Source: Candidatus Gemmiger stercorigallinarum
GTDB lineage: Bacteria > Bacillota > Clostridia > Oscillospirales > Ruminococcaceae
DNA: 54,067 nt
Assembly (NCBI GenBank): GCA_019119495.1
Contig: DWWX01000009.1
Location: forward strand, 1-54,067
Direction: 5' to 3'
A program made the translations under genes and the position numbers. A model generated the notes under the pieces. The model made no database searches. It saw only the letters and a list, made by a program, of their open reading frames with translations, and was not told the DNA's origin. The first letter of the stretch is position 1; each line of letters opens with the position of its first letter. This document shows, piece by piece, positions 11,522 to 53,605 of the stretch.

Positions 11522-13528
11522 TCAGTGGATGCGGCTGCCGGCCTTGACCTCGGCAGGGAAGAAGGGGATGACGCAGCCGCCGTCCTCGGTGTCGGCGGCA
11601 ACGACCATGCCCTCGCTGACGTACTTGCCCTTCATCATCGGGCGGGGGGCCAGGTTTGCCACGATGGCGACTTTTTTGCCCACCAGGTCCTCCGGCTTGT
11701 ACCACTTGGCAATGCCGGACAGGATGCAGCGTTCCCGCTCGCCGTCAAAGACGGTCAGGTGCAAAAGCTTTTTGCTCTCCTTCATGGCCTCGCAGGCGCG
11801 GATCTCGGCCACCCGCAGCTCGGTTTTCATAAAGTCGTCAAAGCTGATCTCCGGCTCGTGGTCGGTGATCTCGGCGGGGGCGTCGGCGGGCCGGGCCGAT
11901 GCCTGCTCCGGCTGGGCGGCCTGGGCGGCGGCCTTCTGGGCGGCCTCCAGGGCTTCCAGCTCGGCCAGCTCCTTCTTGGCGTCGATGCGGGGGAAGATGT
12001 TCTCGCCCTTGTGCAGCGTGCAGGCGGCGGGCAGCGCGCCGAACGCGGCGGCGCTGTCCCAGCTGCGCAGGCTGCTGTCGGTCACGCCCAGCTGGGCAAA
12101 GATCTTGTCGCAGGCGGCAGGCATAAAGGGCTGCAGCAGCGTGGCACAGATGCGCAGCGTTTCGGCCAGGTTGTACAGCACGCGGGCCAGGCGGGGGCGG
12201 TTGGCCTCGTCCTTGGCCAGCACCCAGGGCGCGGTCTCGTCGATGTACTTGTTGGCGCGGGCAATGACGGCGAATACGTCGGCCAGCGCGTTCTGGAAGG
12301 CGTATTTCTCCATCTGGGCCTCGTACTTGCCGCGCAGGCCGTTTGCCATGGCCAGCAGCTCGGCATCCTCCGGGCCTTCGGCCTGTTCGGCGGGCAGCGT
12401 GCCGCCGAAATACTTGTCCGCCATGGCGGTGGTGCGGGACAGCAGGTTGCCCAGGTCGTTGGCCAGGTCCATGTTGATGCGGTTGATCAGCAGCTCGTTG
12501 GAGAAGTTGCCGTCGGTGCCAAAGGGGAAGTCCCGCAGCAGGAAGTAGCGCAGCGCGTCGGCGCTGTACCGCTCGGCCAGGATGTAGGGGTCCACCACGT
12601 TGCCCTTGGACTTGGACATCTTGCCGCCGTCCAGCAGCAGCCAGCCGTGGCCGAACACCTGCTTGGGCAGGGGCATCTCCATGCTCATCAGCATGGCGGG
12701 CCAGATGATGGAGTGGAACCGCACGATCTCCTTGCCCACAAAGTGGACGTCGGCGGGCCAGAAGGTCTGGTAGTCGCTGTCGGGGTAGCGGTCGTTCATA
12801 AAGCCCAGGGCGGTGGTGTAGTTGAACAGCGCGTCGATCCACACATAGACCACGTGCTTGGGGTCAAAGTCCACCGGCACGCCCCAGTTGAAGCTGGTGC
12901 GGCTGACGCACAGGTCCTCCAGCCCCTTGTCGATGAAGTTGTTGACCATCTCGTTGACGCGGGAGCGGGGCTGCAAAAAGTCGGTGTTCACCAAAAGGTC
13001 GCGCACCCGGTCGGCGTACTTGGACAGGCGGAAGAAGTAGGCTTCCTCCTCGGCGTCCACCACGGGGCGGCCGCAGTCGGGGCAGCAGCCGTTGACCAGC
13101 TGGCTCTCGGTCCAGAAGCTCTCGCAGGGGGTGCAGTACTTGCCCTTGTAGGTGCCCTTGTAGATGTCGCCCTTGTCGTACATCTTTTTGAAGATCTTCT
13201 GGATGGCGGCCACGTGGTAGTCGTCGGTGGTGCGGATGAACCGGTCGTAGCTGATCTCCATCAGCTTCCACAGGTCCTTGACGCCGCGGGGGCCTTCGAC
13301 GATATTGTCCACAAACTGCTGGGGGGTGACGCCGGCTTCCCTCGCTTTCAGCTCGATCTTCTGGCCGTGCTCGTCGGTGCCGGTCAGGAACATGACCTTG
13401 CAGCCCTGCAGCCGCTTGTAGCGGGCCATGGCGTCGGTGGCGACGGTGCAGTAGGTGTGGCCGATGTGCAGCTTGTCGCTGGGGTAATAGATCGGCGTGG
13501 TGATGTAGAATTTCTTCTGGTTCTCCAT
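11522..13528 (-). CDS. metG: Methionyl-tRNA synthetase with C-terminal tRNA-binding domain
   Basis: A 668-residue class I synthetase that charges tRNA-Met for initiation and elongation. Near the start KLHIGHTYC carries the HIGH motif. A zinc-knuckle segment (CTPCESFW...CCPDCGRP) follows, then KMSKSKGN. The last 110 residues form an EMAP-II/Trbp111-like domain (FMKTELRVAEIRACEAMKES) that binds tRNA and helps dimerise. The ATG at 13528 has GAAGGAGAG upstream. The gene has its own promoter and a leader with a short ORF and a terminator-like hairpin, so attenuation is likely. Confidence 0.98.
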   Translation of the reverse strand: MENQKKFYITTPIYYPSDKLHIGHTYCTVATDAMARYKRLQGCKVMFLTGTDEHGQKIELKAREAGVTPQQFVDNIVEGPRGVKDLWKLMEISYDRFIRTTDDYHVAAIQKIFKKMYDKGDIYKGTYKGKYCTPCESFWTESQLVNGCCPDCGRPVVDAEEEAYFFRLSKYADRVRDLLVNTDFLQPRSRVNEMVNNFIDKGLEDLCVSRTSFNWGVPVDFDPKHVVYVWIDALFNYTTALGFMNDRYPDSDYQTFWPADVHFVGKEIVRFHSIIWPAMLMSMEMPLPKQVFGHGWLLLDGGKMSKSKGNVVDPYILAERYSADALRYFLLRDFPFGTDGNFSNELLINRINMDLANDLGNLLSRTTAMADKYFGGTLPAEQAEGPEDAELLAMANGLRGKYEAQMEKYAFQNALADVFAVIARANKYIDETAPWVLAKDEANRPRLARVLYNLAETLRICATLLQPFMPAACDKIFAQLGVTDSSLRSWDSAAAFGALPAACTLHKGENIFPRIDAKKELAELEALEAAQKAAAQAAQPEQASARPADAPAEITDHEPEISFDDFMKTELRVAEIRACEAMKESKKLLHLTVFDGERERCILSGIAKWYKPEDLVGKKVAIVANLAPRPMMKGKYVSEGMVVAADTEDGGCVIPFFPAEVKAGSRIH

Positions 13529-13558
13529 GGGCGCATCTCTCCTTCTCGCAGTGGGGAC

Positions 13559-13596
13559 AAAACAAAACGGCAGCGGCGCGTTCGGCGCCCTGCCGT
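13559..13596 (-). terminator. Attenuator-like terminator in the metG leader
   Basis: On the minus strand a GC-rich stem with one bulge (13596 down to 13567) closes on a GAAC-type loop and is followed by TTTTGTTTT. It lies between the metG promoter and metG, 30 bases before the ATG. It can therefore stop metG transcription or serve as the end of the upstream racemase transcript. No canonical T-box sequence (AGGGTGG.ACCGCG) is present. Confidence 0.7.
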
Positions 13597-13618
13597 CGTT
13601 GCTTTCAATTTCACCCTG

Positions 13619-13699
13619 TTACAGGCAGGGGAAAGCAGGCGCAGGCTGCCGAAGCGAACTGCACATGCGCACCATTCCATCACGGCGTTCAAAATCCAT
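13619..13699 (-). CDS. Putative 26-residue leader peptide of metG
   Basis: A short frame starting at ATG 13699 with AAAGGAG nine bases upstream and ending in TAA at 13621-13619. It encodes 26 residues, starting MDFERRDGMVRMCSS and ending FPCL, with methionines at positions 1, 9 and 12. It lies just downstream of the metG promoter and 22 bases upstream of the terminator-like hairpin. This geometry matches amino-acid-biosynthesis leader peptides, where ribosome stalling controls the hairpin. That reading is inferred; three Met codons is a modest enrichment. Confidence 0.5.
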   Translation of the reverse strand: MDFERRDGMVRMCSSLRQPAPAFPCL

Positions 13700-13735
13700 G
13701 ACAGCACGCTCCTTTCCCCCGTTGATAATATCTTC

Positions 13736-13764
13736 AGTATACCGGCGCAGGCCCGGCATGTCAA
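13736..13764 (-). promoter_or_regulatory. metG promoter
   Basis: Minus-strand perfect TTGACA (13764-13759), 17 bases, TATACT (13741-13736). The -35 box overlaps the stop codon of the upstream racemase gene. The start would be near 13729, giving a leader of about 200 bases to metG. Confidence 0.85.
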
Positions 13765-14489
13765 GCAAAATCGTCAAAGCCCACCGGCTCCACGCCGCAG
13801 GCCCGCAGCGCCGCCCGGCACAGGATCTCGGTGCTGTCGATGAAAAACGGGCCCAGGTGCTCGTCCCGCTTGATCAGGCTCAGCTCGGTGCAGCCCAGGA
13901 CCGCCATGTCGCAGCCCTGCTGTTCCAGGTCGGCCACCACGGCGCCGAACTGCGCCATGTCCGCCCGGCGGCCCTGCTTGATCTGGCCGTAGATCAGGCT
14001 GGTCACGTCCTGCTGGCGGGCGGGGCAGGGGGCGGCCCAGTCCAGGCCGGCCTCGCCGCACATCAGCTGGTAGGTGCCGGCCAGCAGGGTGCCCTCGGTG
14101 GCCAGGATGCCCAGCTTTTTGCAGCCGCGGGCTTTGGCCTCGGCCACGGTCAGCCGGGGCATGTTCAGCACCGGCACCGGCAGCGCGGCGGCCAGCCGGT
14201 CATAAAAGTAGTGGGCGGTGTTGCAGGGGATGGCCAGCACGGTGGCGCCGTAGGCCACCAGGCTGCGGCCGTCCTGTTCCATCACCGCAAAGGGATCGTC
14301 GGTGCTTTCGCCCTTGATGTAGGCGGTGCGGTCCGGCGTGGATGCCCGCGAGGAGATCACCACGTCGATGTGGTCCTGGTCCCGGCTGGCCGGTGTGTGG
14401 TCAATGAGCATCTGGTACAGGTAGCAGCTTGCCGCCGGGCCCAGCCCGCCCAACACGCCCAGCACCGGGCGCTTTTCTGTCTGTGCCAT
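13761..14489 (-). CDS. Aspartate/glutamate racemase family protein
   Basis: A 242-residue cofactor-independent racemase. The two catalytic cysteines are in VLAIPCNTAHYF and AVLGCTELSLI, and the N-terminus GVLGGLGPAAS is typical of aspartate racemases (RacD/YgeA). It would interconvert L- and D-aspartate or a related amino acid. It is distinct from murI at 18504-19364, which is the likely wall-specific glutamate racemase. The ATG at 14489 is preceded by AGAGGAGGT. The gene has its own promoter at 14529-14557. Confidence 0.92.
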   Translation of the reverse strand: MAQTEKRPVLGVLGGLGPAASCYLYQMLIDHTPASRDQDHIDVVISSRASTPDRTAYIKGESTDDPFAVMEQDGRSLVAYGATVLAIPCNTAHYFYDRLAAALPVPVLNMPRLTVAEAKARGCKKLGILATEGTLLAGTYQLMCGEAGLDWAAPCPARQQDVTSLIYGQIKQGRRADMAQFGAVVADLEQQGCDMAVLGCTELSLIKRDEHLGPFFIDSTEILCRAALRACGVEPVGFDDFA

Positions 14490-14528
14490 GCCGCACCTCC
14501 TCTGGCTTTCGCCCTGCAAGATAACCTT

Positions 14529-14557
14529 ATTATAAGGCGGAGGGGAAAAATATGCAA
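14529..14557 (-). promoter_or_regulatory. Promoter of the racemase gene
   Basis: Minus-strand TTGCAT (14557-14552), 17 bases, perfect TATAAT (14534-14529), about 40 bases upstream of the ATG. It lies just after the terminator of the large RNA. Confidence 0.8.
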
Positions 14558-14617
14558 GGCGGGCCCTGTTCCGGGGCCTGTTTGCGGTGATGCGGGCAAA
14601 GCGGGCAGGCGGGCAGC

Positions 14618-14652
14618 AAAAAGGTGGGGCGCACAGAAATGTGCGCCCCACC
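14618..14652 (-). terminator. Strong terminator of the large noncoding RNA
   Basis: Perfect 13-bp stem (14640-14652 with 14623-14635), four-base loop, then five T on the minus strand. No protein gene ends near it, so it marks the 3' end of the noncoding transcript. Confidence 0.93.
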
Positions 14653-15461
14653 GGTCTTACATCTTCGGAGTCATAGCCTCTTACCTGTGATTCACTGGTT
14701 TACGGATCGCTCATTTCTGAGCTTCAGATTCCGAATAGCTTGTGAGTCATTATCCGTTTTGGAAACCTGCTGAAATTTTGTTTGCTCCAGAGCTTTTGTT
14801 TGGAAGGTCCCGTGCTTTCGATTCAACTTGGCTGTCAACGATGCTTTTTGTGGAAGCTGTCTTTTCAAACCTGAGATCGGAAACTTAACTGAGATAATAT
14901 GGCAGGTATGCCATTTGTTTCAGTGTATCGTGAACTTTCGCTGTGATCCGGAGTATTCAGCGCCCTTTTGCCGATATGCTGCCGGGTTTTGCGGCATATC
15001 GTTTGTATTTGACTGATATACCAAGAAACTCTGTACCCTGCGGTGTCTTTGAAACTATCTCGGATAACCTGGGAGTGGTTCCGGCCTGAAATCAGGAACC
15101 AGCCAACGACGGAAACCGTTTACCGGCCGTTCATACGGCGGGACTTTCCTTTGGTTGGGATAACGTACAAGGTTCGATGCCGAGGAAATATTCCTCTTAC
15201 TCTAGTACATTGGAGTAACTCCTTGTTCGGTTAGATGAACCCCTTTGAACATATCTCAAAGCTGAGAATTTTCTGTTTTATGGGGCGGCGGATACGATTT
15301 GGTTTTGCCTTTTTTGTCCGTCACCATCTAATCTATATCAAAGCTGTCTTTCTTTGACAGGCCCTGGGATTGCATTTTGATCGATTTTCTGAACCGATGC
15401 ATCATTATCTTTGCTTCTGTACAGGTTATGACCTGCGGCTCTTGATGTGGTCCAGTTCGTC

Positions 15462-15512
15462 TCAGCAAGCCCAGGCCTGCCGGTGATGAATGGGATCTTT
15501 AAAGTTTGCCAT
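15462..15512 (-). CDS. Possible 16-residue micro-ORF inside the large RNA
   Basis: A perfect AAAGGAGG lies nine bases before an ATG at 15512 that opens a frame of 16 codons (MANFKDPIHHRQAWAC) ended by TGA. A perfect Shine-Dalgarno is unexpected in a purely structural RNA, but purine-rich sequence makes chance occurrence plausible. The peptide has no known relative that I can name. Confidence 0.25.
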   Translation of the reverse strand: MANFKDPIHHRQAWAC

Positions 15513-16063
15513 TGGCCTGAGCCTCCTTTCTTACGAATCCTGCCGGCACGCCTCTTTGTTACAACTTGTCAAAAACCCTCGGCGTTTTGTCTTTCTTTTC
15601 TGGATCTTTTAAGGTGTTTCTCTGTCGTCTCTTTCCGGTATATCCAATATTTCTTTTTTTGCCTTTTCTTTCTTTTCCGGTTTTTCTGCCGGCAGGGAAC
15701 TCTTACTTTCGTATTCTTCAGATCCTCTTACCATTTGGGGTTCCATCTGCCTTATCCGGGAAAGATTTTCTTCGTTCCTTTTTGGGGAACAATGTCGATC
15801 TTTTTTCCGTTTTGGCTTTTGGTCTGCCTTTTCCAGAGGGGAAGAGATTTGATTTCGGAACTTTGCCTGCTGCTTGAAACTGGTTTTGAAAAGTAAGGTT
15901 TGGAAGAAAACGGGATATGCTTTTGTGGAAAGAAACCGTTGGTCAGGAAATTGACCTTAAGCCTTTAGAAAAGATGTTCAAAACTCTCTGCCGAACCTTT
16001 TGAGAAGTGGGCTCTTGGAGTTTCTGTACTCCTTGTCTCCGGCTGTTTTCTTTCTGTGACTAT

Positions 16064-16092
16064 ACTATACCACGGCCCAAAGGCAGTGTCTA
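16064..16092 (-). promoter_or_regulatory. Proximal promoter of the large RNA
   Basis: Minus-strand TAGACA (16092-16087), 17-base spacer, TATAGT (16069-16064). Predicted start near 16057. Confidence 0.72.
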
Positions 16093-16140
16093 TTCGCAAA
16101 CCCGACAAGGTTGGAGTGATTTATTTGTGCAAATCACGGG

Positions 16141-16197
16141 TTGAAAATCCATATTTGATTGTGCTATACTATATTTGTTGCGGTGTATCCGTTTCAA
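16141..16197. promoter_or_regulatory. Overlapping promoter-like elements on both strands
   Basis: Minus strand: TTGAAA (16197-16192), 18 bases, TATAGT (16173-16168), a possible distal promoter of the large RNA. Plus strand: TTGAAA (16141-16146), 18 bases, TATACT (16165-16170), pointing toward the hairpin at 16203-16232, which would yield an RNA of only about 60 bases. The two -10 boxes overlap within CTATACTATAT. A 7-bp hairpin (16116-16137) follows on the minus transcript. Confidence 0.5.
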
Positions 16198-16202
16198 CAG
16201 CA

Positions 16203-16232
16203 AGGCCCGCCAGTTTTTCGACTGGCGGGCCT
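16203..16232 (-). terminator. Hairpin at the 3' end of argS
   Basis: Perfect 12-bp stem (16203-16214 with 16221-16232) 24 bases after the argS stop. The T tract is weak on both strands, so it may act as a modest or bidirectional terminator. Confidence 0.6.
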
Positions 16233-16256
16233 TTGTCTGTGCCGGGAAAAGCGGCG

Positions 16257-18017
16257 TTACATGCTTTCGGGCACGTTGATCTTGAACATGGTCAGCGCGT
16301 TGCGGATGACGTCCCGCACGCCCAGGCACAGCGCGATGCGGGCCTGCTGGACGCTGTCCTCGGCGCCCAGGATGCGGCAGGCGCCGTAGAAGCGGTGGAA
16401 GGCGCCCGCCACGTCGATGACAAAGCGGGTGATGCGGGCGGGGTCGTACTTTTCGGCCGCGGCGGCGATCTCGGCGGGGAAGGCGGCCAGCAGCCGCAGC
16501 AGCGCCAGCTCGGACGGGTCGGTCAGCGCGGCGGCGTCGGCGGCGTCCAGGCCGCGGAAGGCCACGCCCTCGCTCTCCAGCTTTTTCAAAATGGAGCAGA
16601 TGCGGGCGTGGGCGTACTGCACGTAGTAGACCGGGTTCTCGCTGTCGTTTTTGACGGCCAGGTCCAGGTCAAAGTCCAGCGTGGAGCTGGATTCCCGCTG
16701 GTTGAAGAAGAACCGGGCGGAATCAATGGGCACATCGTCCAAAAGGTCGGTCAGGGTGATGGCCTTGCCGGTGCGCTTGCTCATGCGGACGGGCTTGCCG
16801 TCGCGGATCAGGTTGACCATCTGCATCAGCACCACGTCCAGGCGGCTGCCGTCCAGGCCCACCGCGTCCATGGCGCCCTTCATGCGGGCCACGTGGCCGT
16901 GGTGGTCGGCGCCCCACACGTCGATGGCCTTGTCAAAGCCGCGCACCGCCAGCTTGTTGTAGTGGTAGGCGATGTCGGCGGCAAAGTAGGTGGGCACGCC
17001 GTTGGCGCGAACCAGGACCTCGTCCTTGGCCTCCTCCTCGCTGCCGTCGTCCGACTTCTTTTTGTTGGCGACGCCGTACTTGGAGCTGTACTGGGCGCTT
17101 TTGTACATGATGGCGCCGTCCTCGGCCTTGTAGCAGGCGCCCTTGTCCAGCAGCAGCTGGATGATGTCATTCACCGCGCCGCTGTCGTGCAGGGTGCTTT
17201 CGGGGAACCAGACGTCGTACTCGATGCGGTACTTGCCCAGGTCGCGCTTGAGCCCGGCAATGTTTTTGGGCAGGGCGTCGGCGGTGATGGCGGATTTCAG
17301 CTCTTCAAAGTCGGCGTTCACGTAGCGGTCGCCGTGGACGTCGGCAAACTCTTTGGCGCGCTGGATGATGTCGGCGCCCTGGTAGCACTCCTCCGGCAGG
17401 GGGCAGGCCTCCTCGCCCTTGTACAGCTGCAGGTAGCGGATGGCCAGGCTCTTGCCGAATTTCTGGATCTGGTTGCCCGCGTCGTTGATGTAGAACTCGC
17501 GGGTCACGTCGTAGCCGGCCCAGTCCAGGCAGGCGGCCAGGCAGTCGCCCAAAGCGCCGCCGCGGGCGTTGCCCATGTGCATGGGGCCGGTGGGGTTGGC
17601 CGAGACGAATTCCACGTTGTAGCGTTTGCCCTGGCCGGCGTTGGTGCGGCCGTAGTCCTGGCCGGCGCAGGCCGCCCGCAGCACCGAGGTGAACCACCCG
17701 CTGCCCAGATACAGGTTGATAAAGCCGGGGCCGGCGATCTCCACCCGGTCAAAGGGGCTGCCGGTCAAATCCAGCGCGCCGACGACCGCCTCGGCGATCT
17801 GGCGGGGCGCTTTGCGGAACACCCGCGCGCCGGCCATGGCCAGGTTGGCGGCCACATCACCGTTTTTGGGGTCGGCGGGGATCTCAACGATAAAGGCGGG
17901 CAGCTCGGTTTTGGGCAGCGCGCCGGCGTCCATCGCGGCGTTGGCGGCGGCGGTCAGCAGCGCGCGGGCCGCCTCCAGCGCCGACTGGCGGGGGTTGTAG
18001 TTGCGGTAATCGGTCAT
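16257..18017 (-). CDS. argS: Arginyl-tRNA synthetase
   Basis: A 586-residue class I synthetase charging tRNA-Arg. It shows SANPTGPMHMGNARGGALGD with the HIGH-type signature, VWGADHHGHVARMK, VRMSKRTG in the KMSKS position, and a DALR anticodon-binding domain at the C-terminus (YVQYAHARICSILKKLE onward). The ATG at 18017 follows AAAGGAGAG. It is the last gene of ddl-murI-DUF1934-argS; the DUF1934-argS pairing resembles ywiB-argS of Bacillus subtilis. Confidence 0.98.
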   Translation of the reverse strand: MTDYRNYNPRQSALEAARALLTAAANAAMDAGALPKTELPAFIVEIPADPKNGDVAANLAMAGARVFRKAPRQIAEAVVGALDLTGSPFDRVEIAGPGFINLYLGSGWFTSVLRAACAGQDYGRTNAGQGKRYNVEFVSANPTGPMHMGNARGGALGDCLAACLDWAGYDVTREFYINDAGNQIQKFGKSLAIRYLQLYKGEEACPLPEECYQGADIIQRAKEFADVHGDRYVNADFEELKSAITADALPKNIAGLKRDLGKYRIEYDVWFPESTLHDSGAVNDIIQLLLDKGACYKAEDGAIMYKSAQYSSKYGVANKKKSDDGSEEEAKDEVLVRANGVPTYFAADIAYHYNKLAVRGFDKAIDVWGADHHGHVARMKGAMDAVGLDGSRLDVVLMQMVNLIRDGKPVRMSKRTGKAITLTDLLDDVPIDSARFFFNQRESSSTLDFDLDLAVKNDSENPVYYVQYAHARICSILKKLESEGVAFRGLDAADAAALTDPSELALLRLLAAFPAEIAAAAEKYDPARITRFVIDVAGAFHRFYGACRILGAEDSVQQARIALCLGVRDVIRNALTMFKINVPESM

Positions 18018-53517: not shown

Positions 53518-53605
53518 GGAGAGTTGTCCGAGTGGTCGATGGTGCAGCACTCGAAATGCTGTGTCCCTAACGGGACCTAGGGTTCGAATCCCTAACTCTC
53601 CGCCA
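53518..53605 (+). tRNA. tRNA-Ser (anticodon CGA)
   Basis: An 88-base type II tRNA. Acceptor GGAGAGT/ACTCTCC, anticodon stem CAGCA/TGCTG with loop CTCGAAA giving anticodon CGA (reads UCG), long variable arm GTCCC-TAAC-GGGAC, T arm with GGTTCGAATCC, discriminator G and an encoded CCA end. Confidence 0.96.

Follow-up and report, generated by a model that had tools for sequence, protein, structure and literature searches.

A predicted large structured RNA family with conserved Shine-Dalgarno-led minigenes in Gemmiger and three related genera

Results

The window examined here comprises 54,067 nucleotides of contig DWWX01000009.1 from Candidatus Gemmiger stercorigallinarum, the host of this copy, and contains a predicted RNA gene of ca 1.44 kb on the minus strand (14618..16057). 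The ends of the gene are inferred from a promoter and an intrinsic terminator. The promoter (16064..16092, minus strand) is sigma-70-like, with a −35 element TAGACA, a spacer of 17 nt and a TG-extended −10 element TATAGT, and the terminator (14618..14652, minus strand) has a 13-bp stem (14652-14623) followed by T5. The initial annotation, which had read the interval as a minus-strand unit with its own promoter and terminator, is borne out on this point. The same is true of the setting it gave, between a racemase gene and argS: the former encodes an Asp/Glu racemase (PF01177), and argS lies on the other side. The interval is also, as described there, poorer in GC than its surroundings (44.9% for the RNA gene versus 64.8% for the window) and purine-loaded on the transcribed strand (57.4%). 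Its minimum free energy is 3.9 sd under 15 dinucleotide shuffles (z −3.9). That the interval is more than a chance feature follows from its conservation in relatives.

It had further been stated that the interval holds no credible ORF. This is correct for long frames, the longest minus-strand ORF entirely within the RNA gene having 58 aa, but not for short ones, since conserved mini-ORFs led by Shine-Dalgarno sequences are present at 15512-15462, 15210-15202 and 14674-14657. On the plus strand, ORFs of 149 aa and 103 aa are found at 15447-15896, over a stretch that is hardly common to the relatives. The region from the 5′ hairpin to the first mini-ORF (15550-15995) is purine-rich, aligns badly even in close relatives and is missing from a short copy, L050; the 149-aa ORF reads through it. 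No intact protein gene was found at the same place in the 34 relatives.

A scan of the whole window against Rfam 15 gave only a tRNA above the gathering threshold, namely tRNA-Ser (CGA) at 53518-53605. With E values up to 10, eight matches were obtained in 13500-17400, all far below their gathering thresholds, and ten relative loci from eight genomes yielded only a T-box, which precedes metG in L177. Membership in the ROOL, GOLLD, OLE or raiA families was rejected, as none of their covariance models scored above its gathering threshold in Rfam 15. A tmRNA or tRNA was likewise rejected, with no ARAGORN prediction in the interval or in six relative loci, and so was a CsrA-sequestering RNA, since csrA (PF02599) is absent from the one genome searched, the host's own, which is 86.6% complete. 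The absence of an obvious mobile element is consistent with the lack of matches in phage and plasmid records (distant blastn) and in viral contigs (exact core pattern). No description of the RNA was found in open-licence PMC texts, supplements apart. The text of PMC8632094 mentions neither the genera nor argS, and that of PMC8040213 neither Faecalibacterium nor Ruminococcaceae; the supplements of both may hold a candidate.

Let us now consider the distribution of the RNA. In a blastn search of 61 genomes with the unit, 33 of the 35 genomes of the window's genus, Gemmiger, gave a match, and none of the 26 from other genera did. Among named genomes, the core pattern occurs in 33 stretches; Gemmiger accounts for 28, and three of these belong to G. 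formicilis ATCC 27749. It is also present in a contig labelled Candidatus Acutalibacter (L069), which matches a Gemmiger locus over 1.4 kb with 90% identity and is possibly mis-binned. The Gemmiger counts below refer to 35 elements, that is, the window copy and 34 relatives, with L044 left out because a contig end cuts it.

The search was widened by inspecting the DNA 3′ of argS and by iterating covariance models, and the RNA was found in Gemmiger and three further genera of the same bacterial family, called g33, g37 and g105 here. A model built from Gemmiger sequences only (R1) gave matches with E<=1 in 13 of 247 genomes of the family, four being Gemmiger genomes and the other nine having E values of 0.0015-0.7, and nothing convincing among the 247 beyond Gemmiger. 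The DNA 3′ of argS in ten non-Gemmiger genomes was covered by motif scans and blastn on all ten, and the stretches of L133, L134, L135, L136, L137, L138 and L140 were inspected directly. Clear relatives were found in two of the ten: G066 (g33) has one 3′ of argS, with MSNTEPVQQWQARGR, and G070 (g37) has two tandem copies there, with MFSDTTPAQNGRLGSC and MFSDTTPAQQRRLGYC. Genus g37 is represented by two genomes, each with two copies. The tandem copies of g37 lie 3′ of argS (L136 260-1600; L155), and in L136 a promoter-like box and a terminator-like end go with each of them.

The next model, R2, was built from 14 sequences, none from g105. Among 396 genomes it recovered g33, g37 and one g105 genome, with five of the 20 matches set aside as weak (E 4.5e-4 to 0.03), and it matched 4/4 g33 genomes and 18/31 g105 genomes. 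With the 61 sequences of model R3, the number in g105 rose to 28/31, including all 22 near-complete genomes; three second places were set aside as weak (G454 with E 1.2e-5, G450 and G382). In 394 genomes of the order, strong matches came only from the window's genus, g33 and g105; 14 of the 20 matches, with E values of 1.7e-4 to 0.034 and thus at about the chance level for 394 genomes, were set aside. In total 68 copies were counted (35 from Gemmiger, four from g33, four from g37, 18 from g105 and seven of ten further g105 places found by R3 only), which are related and were found via the core, so that counts over them are not independent.

The initial description of the RNA as giant fits the window copy but not the family overall, in which the length is ca 0.5-1.5 kb. 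In some g105 copies, with an RNA of ca 1 kb, an internal module consisting of a 12-codon ORF and an MI minigene is repeated ca 450-500 nt apart; this was seen directly in L177 and is implied by the ORF lists in L180, L181, L185 and L186.

Both ends of the unit are retained in the relatives. A GCGAAT[A/G]GAC box overlapping the −35 element is present in 34/35 Gemmiger copies, the lone miss being truncated by a contig end, and the same box with a TATA-like hexamer is present in 15 of the 17 g105 copies having enough upstream DNA. Terminators were found by scan at 31/36 loci and by eye at four more (L025, L048, L050 and L056), where the scan had missed them. The sequence of the terminator stem varies among copies and its pairing is retained. 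The 3′ end of L039 is probably placed too far 3′ (MTP at 680 of 1047), and the 3′ end of the g33 copies (L134, L151, L152, L154, L156) was not found.

Concerning the neighbourhood, argS is located upstream on the same strand, within 1.2 kb, in 28 of the 35 Gemmiger elements, among them the window with its own argS. The other seven are three extra copies elsewhere, three elements at contig ends and L053, with no argS in 0.8 kb. The extra copies away from argS are L027, L028 and L050, the latter two with a nearby ORF that we take to resemble a corrinoid adenosyltransferase. Upstream argS is also found in 4/4 g33 genomes, where the racemase gene is farther downstream and begins ca 1.4 kb past the core, and in both g37 genomes. 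The linkage is not universal, as only seven of the 25 g105 copies with available flank have argS upstream; in G382, of this genus, argS is absent from 4.2 kb upstream. The downstream neighbours differ among copies, with the terminator in between: a racemase gene or metG follows in many, metG in several of those from g105. At L177 a T-box leader (261-518) stands ahead of metG just past the RNA. The varying downstream gene and the terminator at the end suggest that the RNA is a stand-alone one.

We turn next to the structure, for which all coordinates are on the minus strand. Close to the 5′ end there is a hairpin, P0, of sequence GGAGU-ACAGAA-ACUCC (16017..16032); of the 27 representatives given to a best-stem search, every one yielded a stem, with unclear homology for some. 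The core contains a long-range helix, P1. Its 5′ strand (15470..15481) lies within the second half of ORF1, and its 3′ strand (15356..15368) is ca 100 nt downstream. Between these strands is the hairpin P2, CAGGU-CAUA-ACCUG (15422..15435). The region of the P1 5′ strand can alternatively form a local hairpin inside ORF1, CGGCAGGC-CUGG-GCUUGCUG (15463..15482).

When 14 sequences were aligned with MAFFT, 91.3% of the P1 and P2 cells were paired. The compensatory changes in homologues that the initial annotation had named as a check are present: 22 cells in 10 pairs are changed on both sides, compared to a shuffled mean of 6.4 (0/500) and to 1-7 for slid controls, the latter comparison favouring P1 because the helix was drawn by eye from the sequences and then counted. 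For 61 sequences aligned by the model, the corresponding values are 115 two-sided cells, 31.2 for shuffled and 5-28 for slid pairs. The recovery of g105 by R2, which was built without this genus, is more independent support for P1. RNAalifold on 18 g105 sequences did not recover P1 and preferred the local hairpin inside ORF1. The calculated energies for 14 representatives are ca −17 to −30 kcal/mol for the P1 duplex, and the local fold has −9 to −16 in all 14; in L174 the best P1 duplex takes a different shape. In Gemmiger the local hairpin has 99.3% of its cells paired and no two-sided change. The GAAA-tetraloop hairpin pointed out initially is present at 14709..14722, and five close relatives also have a hairpin there. 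In close relatives the start of a further short frame, ORF3, falls in a CUCAU-GAAA-AUGAG hairpin at this position.

The short frames merit a closer description. ORF1 (15462..15512, minus strand) encodes MANFKDPIHHRQAWAC-stop in 16 codons and is preceded by the Shine-Dalgarno sequence AGGAGG (15522..15527). It is intact in 67/68 copies, L179 being without the stop, a constancy that is partly due to sample selection. In all 35 Gemmiger copies, AAGG[A/G]GG is followed after 8-10 nt by an AUG that opens a frame of 15-16 codons, closed by TGA in 33 copies and by TAA in two; in L033, L039 and L051 the frame is shorter by one codon and is kept. The peptide is M[AV]NFKDPIHHR[RQ]AWAC in most Gemmiger copies, and [DET]P[IVA][HQ] recurs in most copies across genera. 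A column-permutation test for protein-like substitution gave a mixed outcome, with the real score reached in 8/2000 permutations for Gemmiger, 626/2000 for g105 and 123/2000 combined; in-frame stops as rare as observed occurred in 47/2000. Thus, the starts and stops are kept, and the peptide sequences may be held by the RNA fold. In g105, the conserved Pro and Gln codons sit in a hairpin with the pairings CCCG/CGGG and CAGY/RCUG, and the conservation of ORF1, including these codons, can largely be explained by P1 and the hairpins.

Farther 3′, ORF2 (15202..15210, minus strand) is the minigene AUG-UAC-UAG (MY-stop) with the Shine-Dalgarno sequence AAGGAG (15219..15224), and ORF4 (14657..14674, minus strand) is MTPKM-stop, with the stop 4 nt ahead of the terminator stem. 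At least one minigene of 2-4 codons with CCnAUG and a Shine-Dalgarno sequence is found in 68/68 copies. In all, the 68 copies contain 122 CCnAUG minigenes, compared to 2.1 on average and never more than 6 when all copies were shuffled 40 times, and 142 versus 25.4 if the CC is not required. Of the 122, 70 are AUG-UAC-stop, with TAG in 33, TAA in 28 and TGA in 9, and the second residue of ORF2 varies (Y, I, F, N, S, H). A count of starts preceded by a Shine-Dalgarno sequence gave 119 in 35 elements versus 40.1 after shuffling, the recurrent AUG-UAC-stop included. MTPxx-stop is present in 63/68 copies (the exceptions are L045 and four from g33), uses TAA, TAG and TGA across copies and adjoins the terminator in most Gemmiger copies. 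ORF4 of the window has a poor Shine-Dalgarno sequence, as the purine-rich box next to it stands at too short a distance, and ORF3, M[K/T]MS..SEK-stop in close relatives, is absent from the window copy; both points count against the reading favoured below. Many g105 copies have an additional ORF of 10-12 codons ending in FE, plus an ORF3 such as MKRPVQTEK. These conserved Shine-Dalgarno-led minigenes make the designation of the RNA as noncoding doubtful.

Discussion

The interpretation that we tentatively prefer is that of a stand-alone structured RNA of an undescribed family with a chain of minigenes, acting in trans as a translation-coupled switch or as a ribosome holder. The comparison of copies establishes homology, partial synteny, covariation and the conserved starts, stops and Shine-Dalgarno boxes; transcription, translation, switching and function are inferred. 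Transcription would run from ca 16057 to 14618, as placed by the promoter and terminator. The core would be built around the long-range P1, with its 5′ strand formed by the second half of the 16-codon ORF1, and the same stretch could close as a local hairpin instead; it is this competition that suggests a switch. Ribosomes would load at the start of ORF1 and at those of the minigenes of 2-5 codons located 3′ of the core (MY-stop, MTPxx-stop), translate briefly and stop, with rapid turnover on the short ones. A ribosome on ORF1 would melt both P1 and the local hairpin, such that how the RNA folds and how stable it is would be set by the ease of ribosome initiation. The action would take place in trans and not as a leader of the next gene. 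According to PMC8708949, strong Shine-Dalgarno sites with minigenes can shield transcripts. A more specific proposal, which we consider possible although doubtful, is that the RNA is neither a messenger nor noncoding: the conserved minigene series would serve to occupy ribosomes, as a sensor of initiation or a limit on it, and in this way the RNA would change its own fold, with no role for the peptides.

A number of other explanations were considered. An unlikely but serious one is that the RNA is noncoding, large and structured, like ROOL, GOLLD or OLE, and that its AUG, Shine-Dalgarno and stop triplets belong to RNA motifs or protein-binding sites and are not translated. The covariation, the non-significant coding test in g105 and the location of the ORF1 Pro and Gln codons and of the ORF3 start inside hairpins all agree with it. 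It is more difficult to reconcile with the near-constant spacing of Shine-Dalgarno sequence, AUG and stop in 67 of the 68 ORF1s, with ORF1s that are one codon shorter in frame, with the swapping of all three stop codons at ORF2 and ORF4, and with the excess of minigenes over the shuffled sequences. If instead the peptides mattered, the RNA would be a polycistronic messenger for functional micropeptides of 16, 12, 9 and 5 residues, which might for instance signal or modulate, and its structure would provide stability. Patterns do recur across genera, in ORF1, in the SEK/TEK end of ORF3 in several and in MTPKK of ORF4, but two-residue products such as MY and MI are unlikely to be active peptides, the second residue of ORF2 varies and the conserved ORF1 overlaps RNA helices, and we regard this option as rather improbable.

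Little weight can be given to a growth brake based on minigene toxicity, in which strong two-codon minigenes would hold initiating ribosomes, release peptidyl-tRNA and drain tRNA. Every copy has a minigene of the required type, and PMC8708949 discusses how such minigenes can poison E. coli via peptidyl-tRNA release; those assayed in that paper were, however, non-toxic and cis-acting, and 70 of the 122 minigenes here are AUG-UAC-stop. Very improbable is a leader-peptide attenuator, where a ribosome on ORF4, with its stop a few nt from the terminator, would permit readthrough into the next gene. The position of ORF4 and the racemase or metG genes that follow many copies would suit such a function, but the downstream neighbours are not constant, extra copies sit elsewhere, a T-box is already present ahead of metG at one g105 locus, and the RNA is far longer than the attenuators familiar to us. 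Finally, a decayed protein gene or an assembly artefact would account for the lack of a long minus-strand ORF and for the variable purine-rich stretches, and is hardly credible for an element that four genera have kept, with covarying helices and both a promoter and a terminator.

It is useful to compare the minigene-bearing RNA with known systems. ROOL, GOLLD and OLE are long structured bacterial RNAs with covarying helices and unsettled function. The present RNA resembles them in length, structure and covarying helices. It is unlike them in its conserved Shine-Dalgarno-led minigenes, its threefold length range and the lack of an Rfam match. Another stand-alone structured RNA of Bacillota is the raiA motif RNA (ModT); the new RNA is also structured and probably stand-alone, without a raiA match in the Rfam scan. 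In the leader-peptide attenuators and regulatory uORFs of erm, tna and topAI, short ORFs lie over alternative helices and control the next gene in cis. An overlap of short ORFs with alternative RNA helices may be shared, whereas the new RNA ends at a terminator and its next gene is not constant. RNAIII is a dual-function structured regulatory RNA with one 26-codon gene; the new RNA is likewise structured with small peptide ORFs, of which it has several, with 2-16 codons. Two-codon ORFs with a Shine-Dalgarno box are also known from lambda bar. The axe-txe minigene mg2 is of the same kind, according to PMC8708949. The minigenes familiar to us are single or paired and located in messenger leaders or operons, while the new RNA has a conserved series inside a structured RNA.

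Conclusions

The proposal of a new large structured RNA family made in the initial annotation is supported by the lack of an Rfam match, the covarying homologues, the retained promoter and terminator and the argS synteny in the window's genus. The family is new as a large structured RNA, and the conserved minigene series distinguishes it from ROOL, GOLLD, OLE and raiA as we know them. Absent from Rfam 15 and frequent in four gut-bacterial genera, it joins the few very large structured RNAs of bacteria. The conserved minigenes offer a direct handle, with one start-codon change for each proposed ribosome contact. If ribosomes indeed sit on the minigenes, a bacterial RNA could read out translation capacity.
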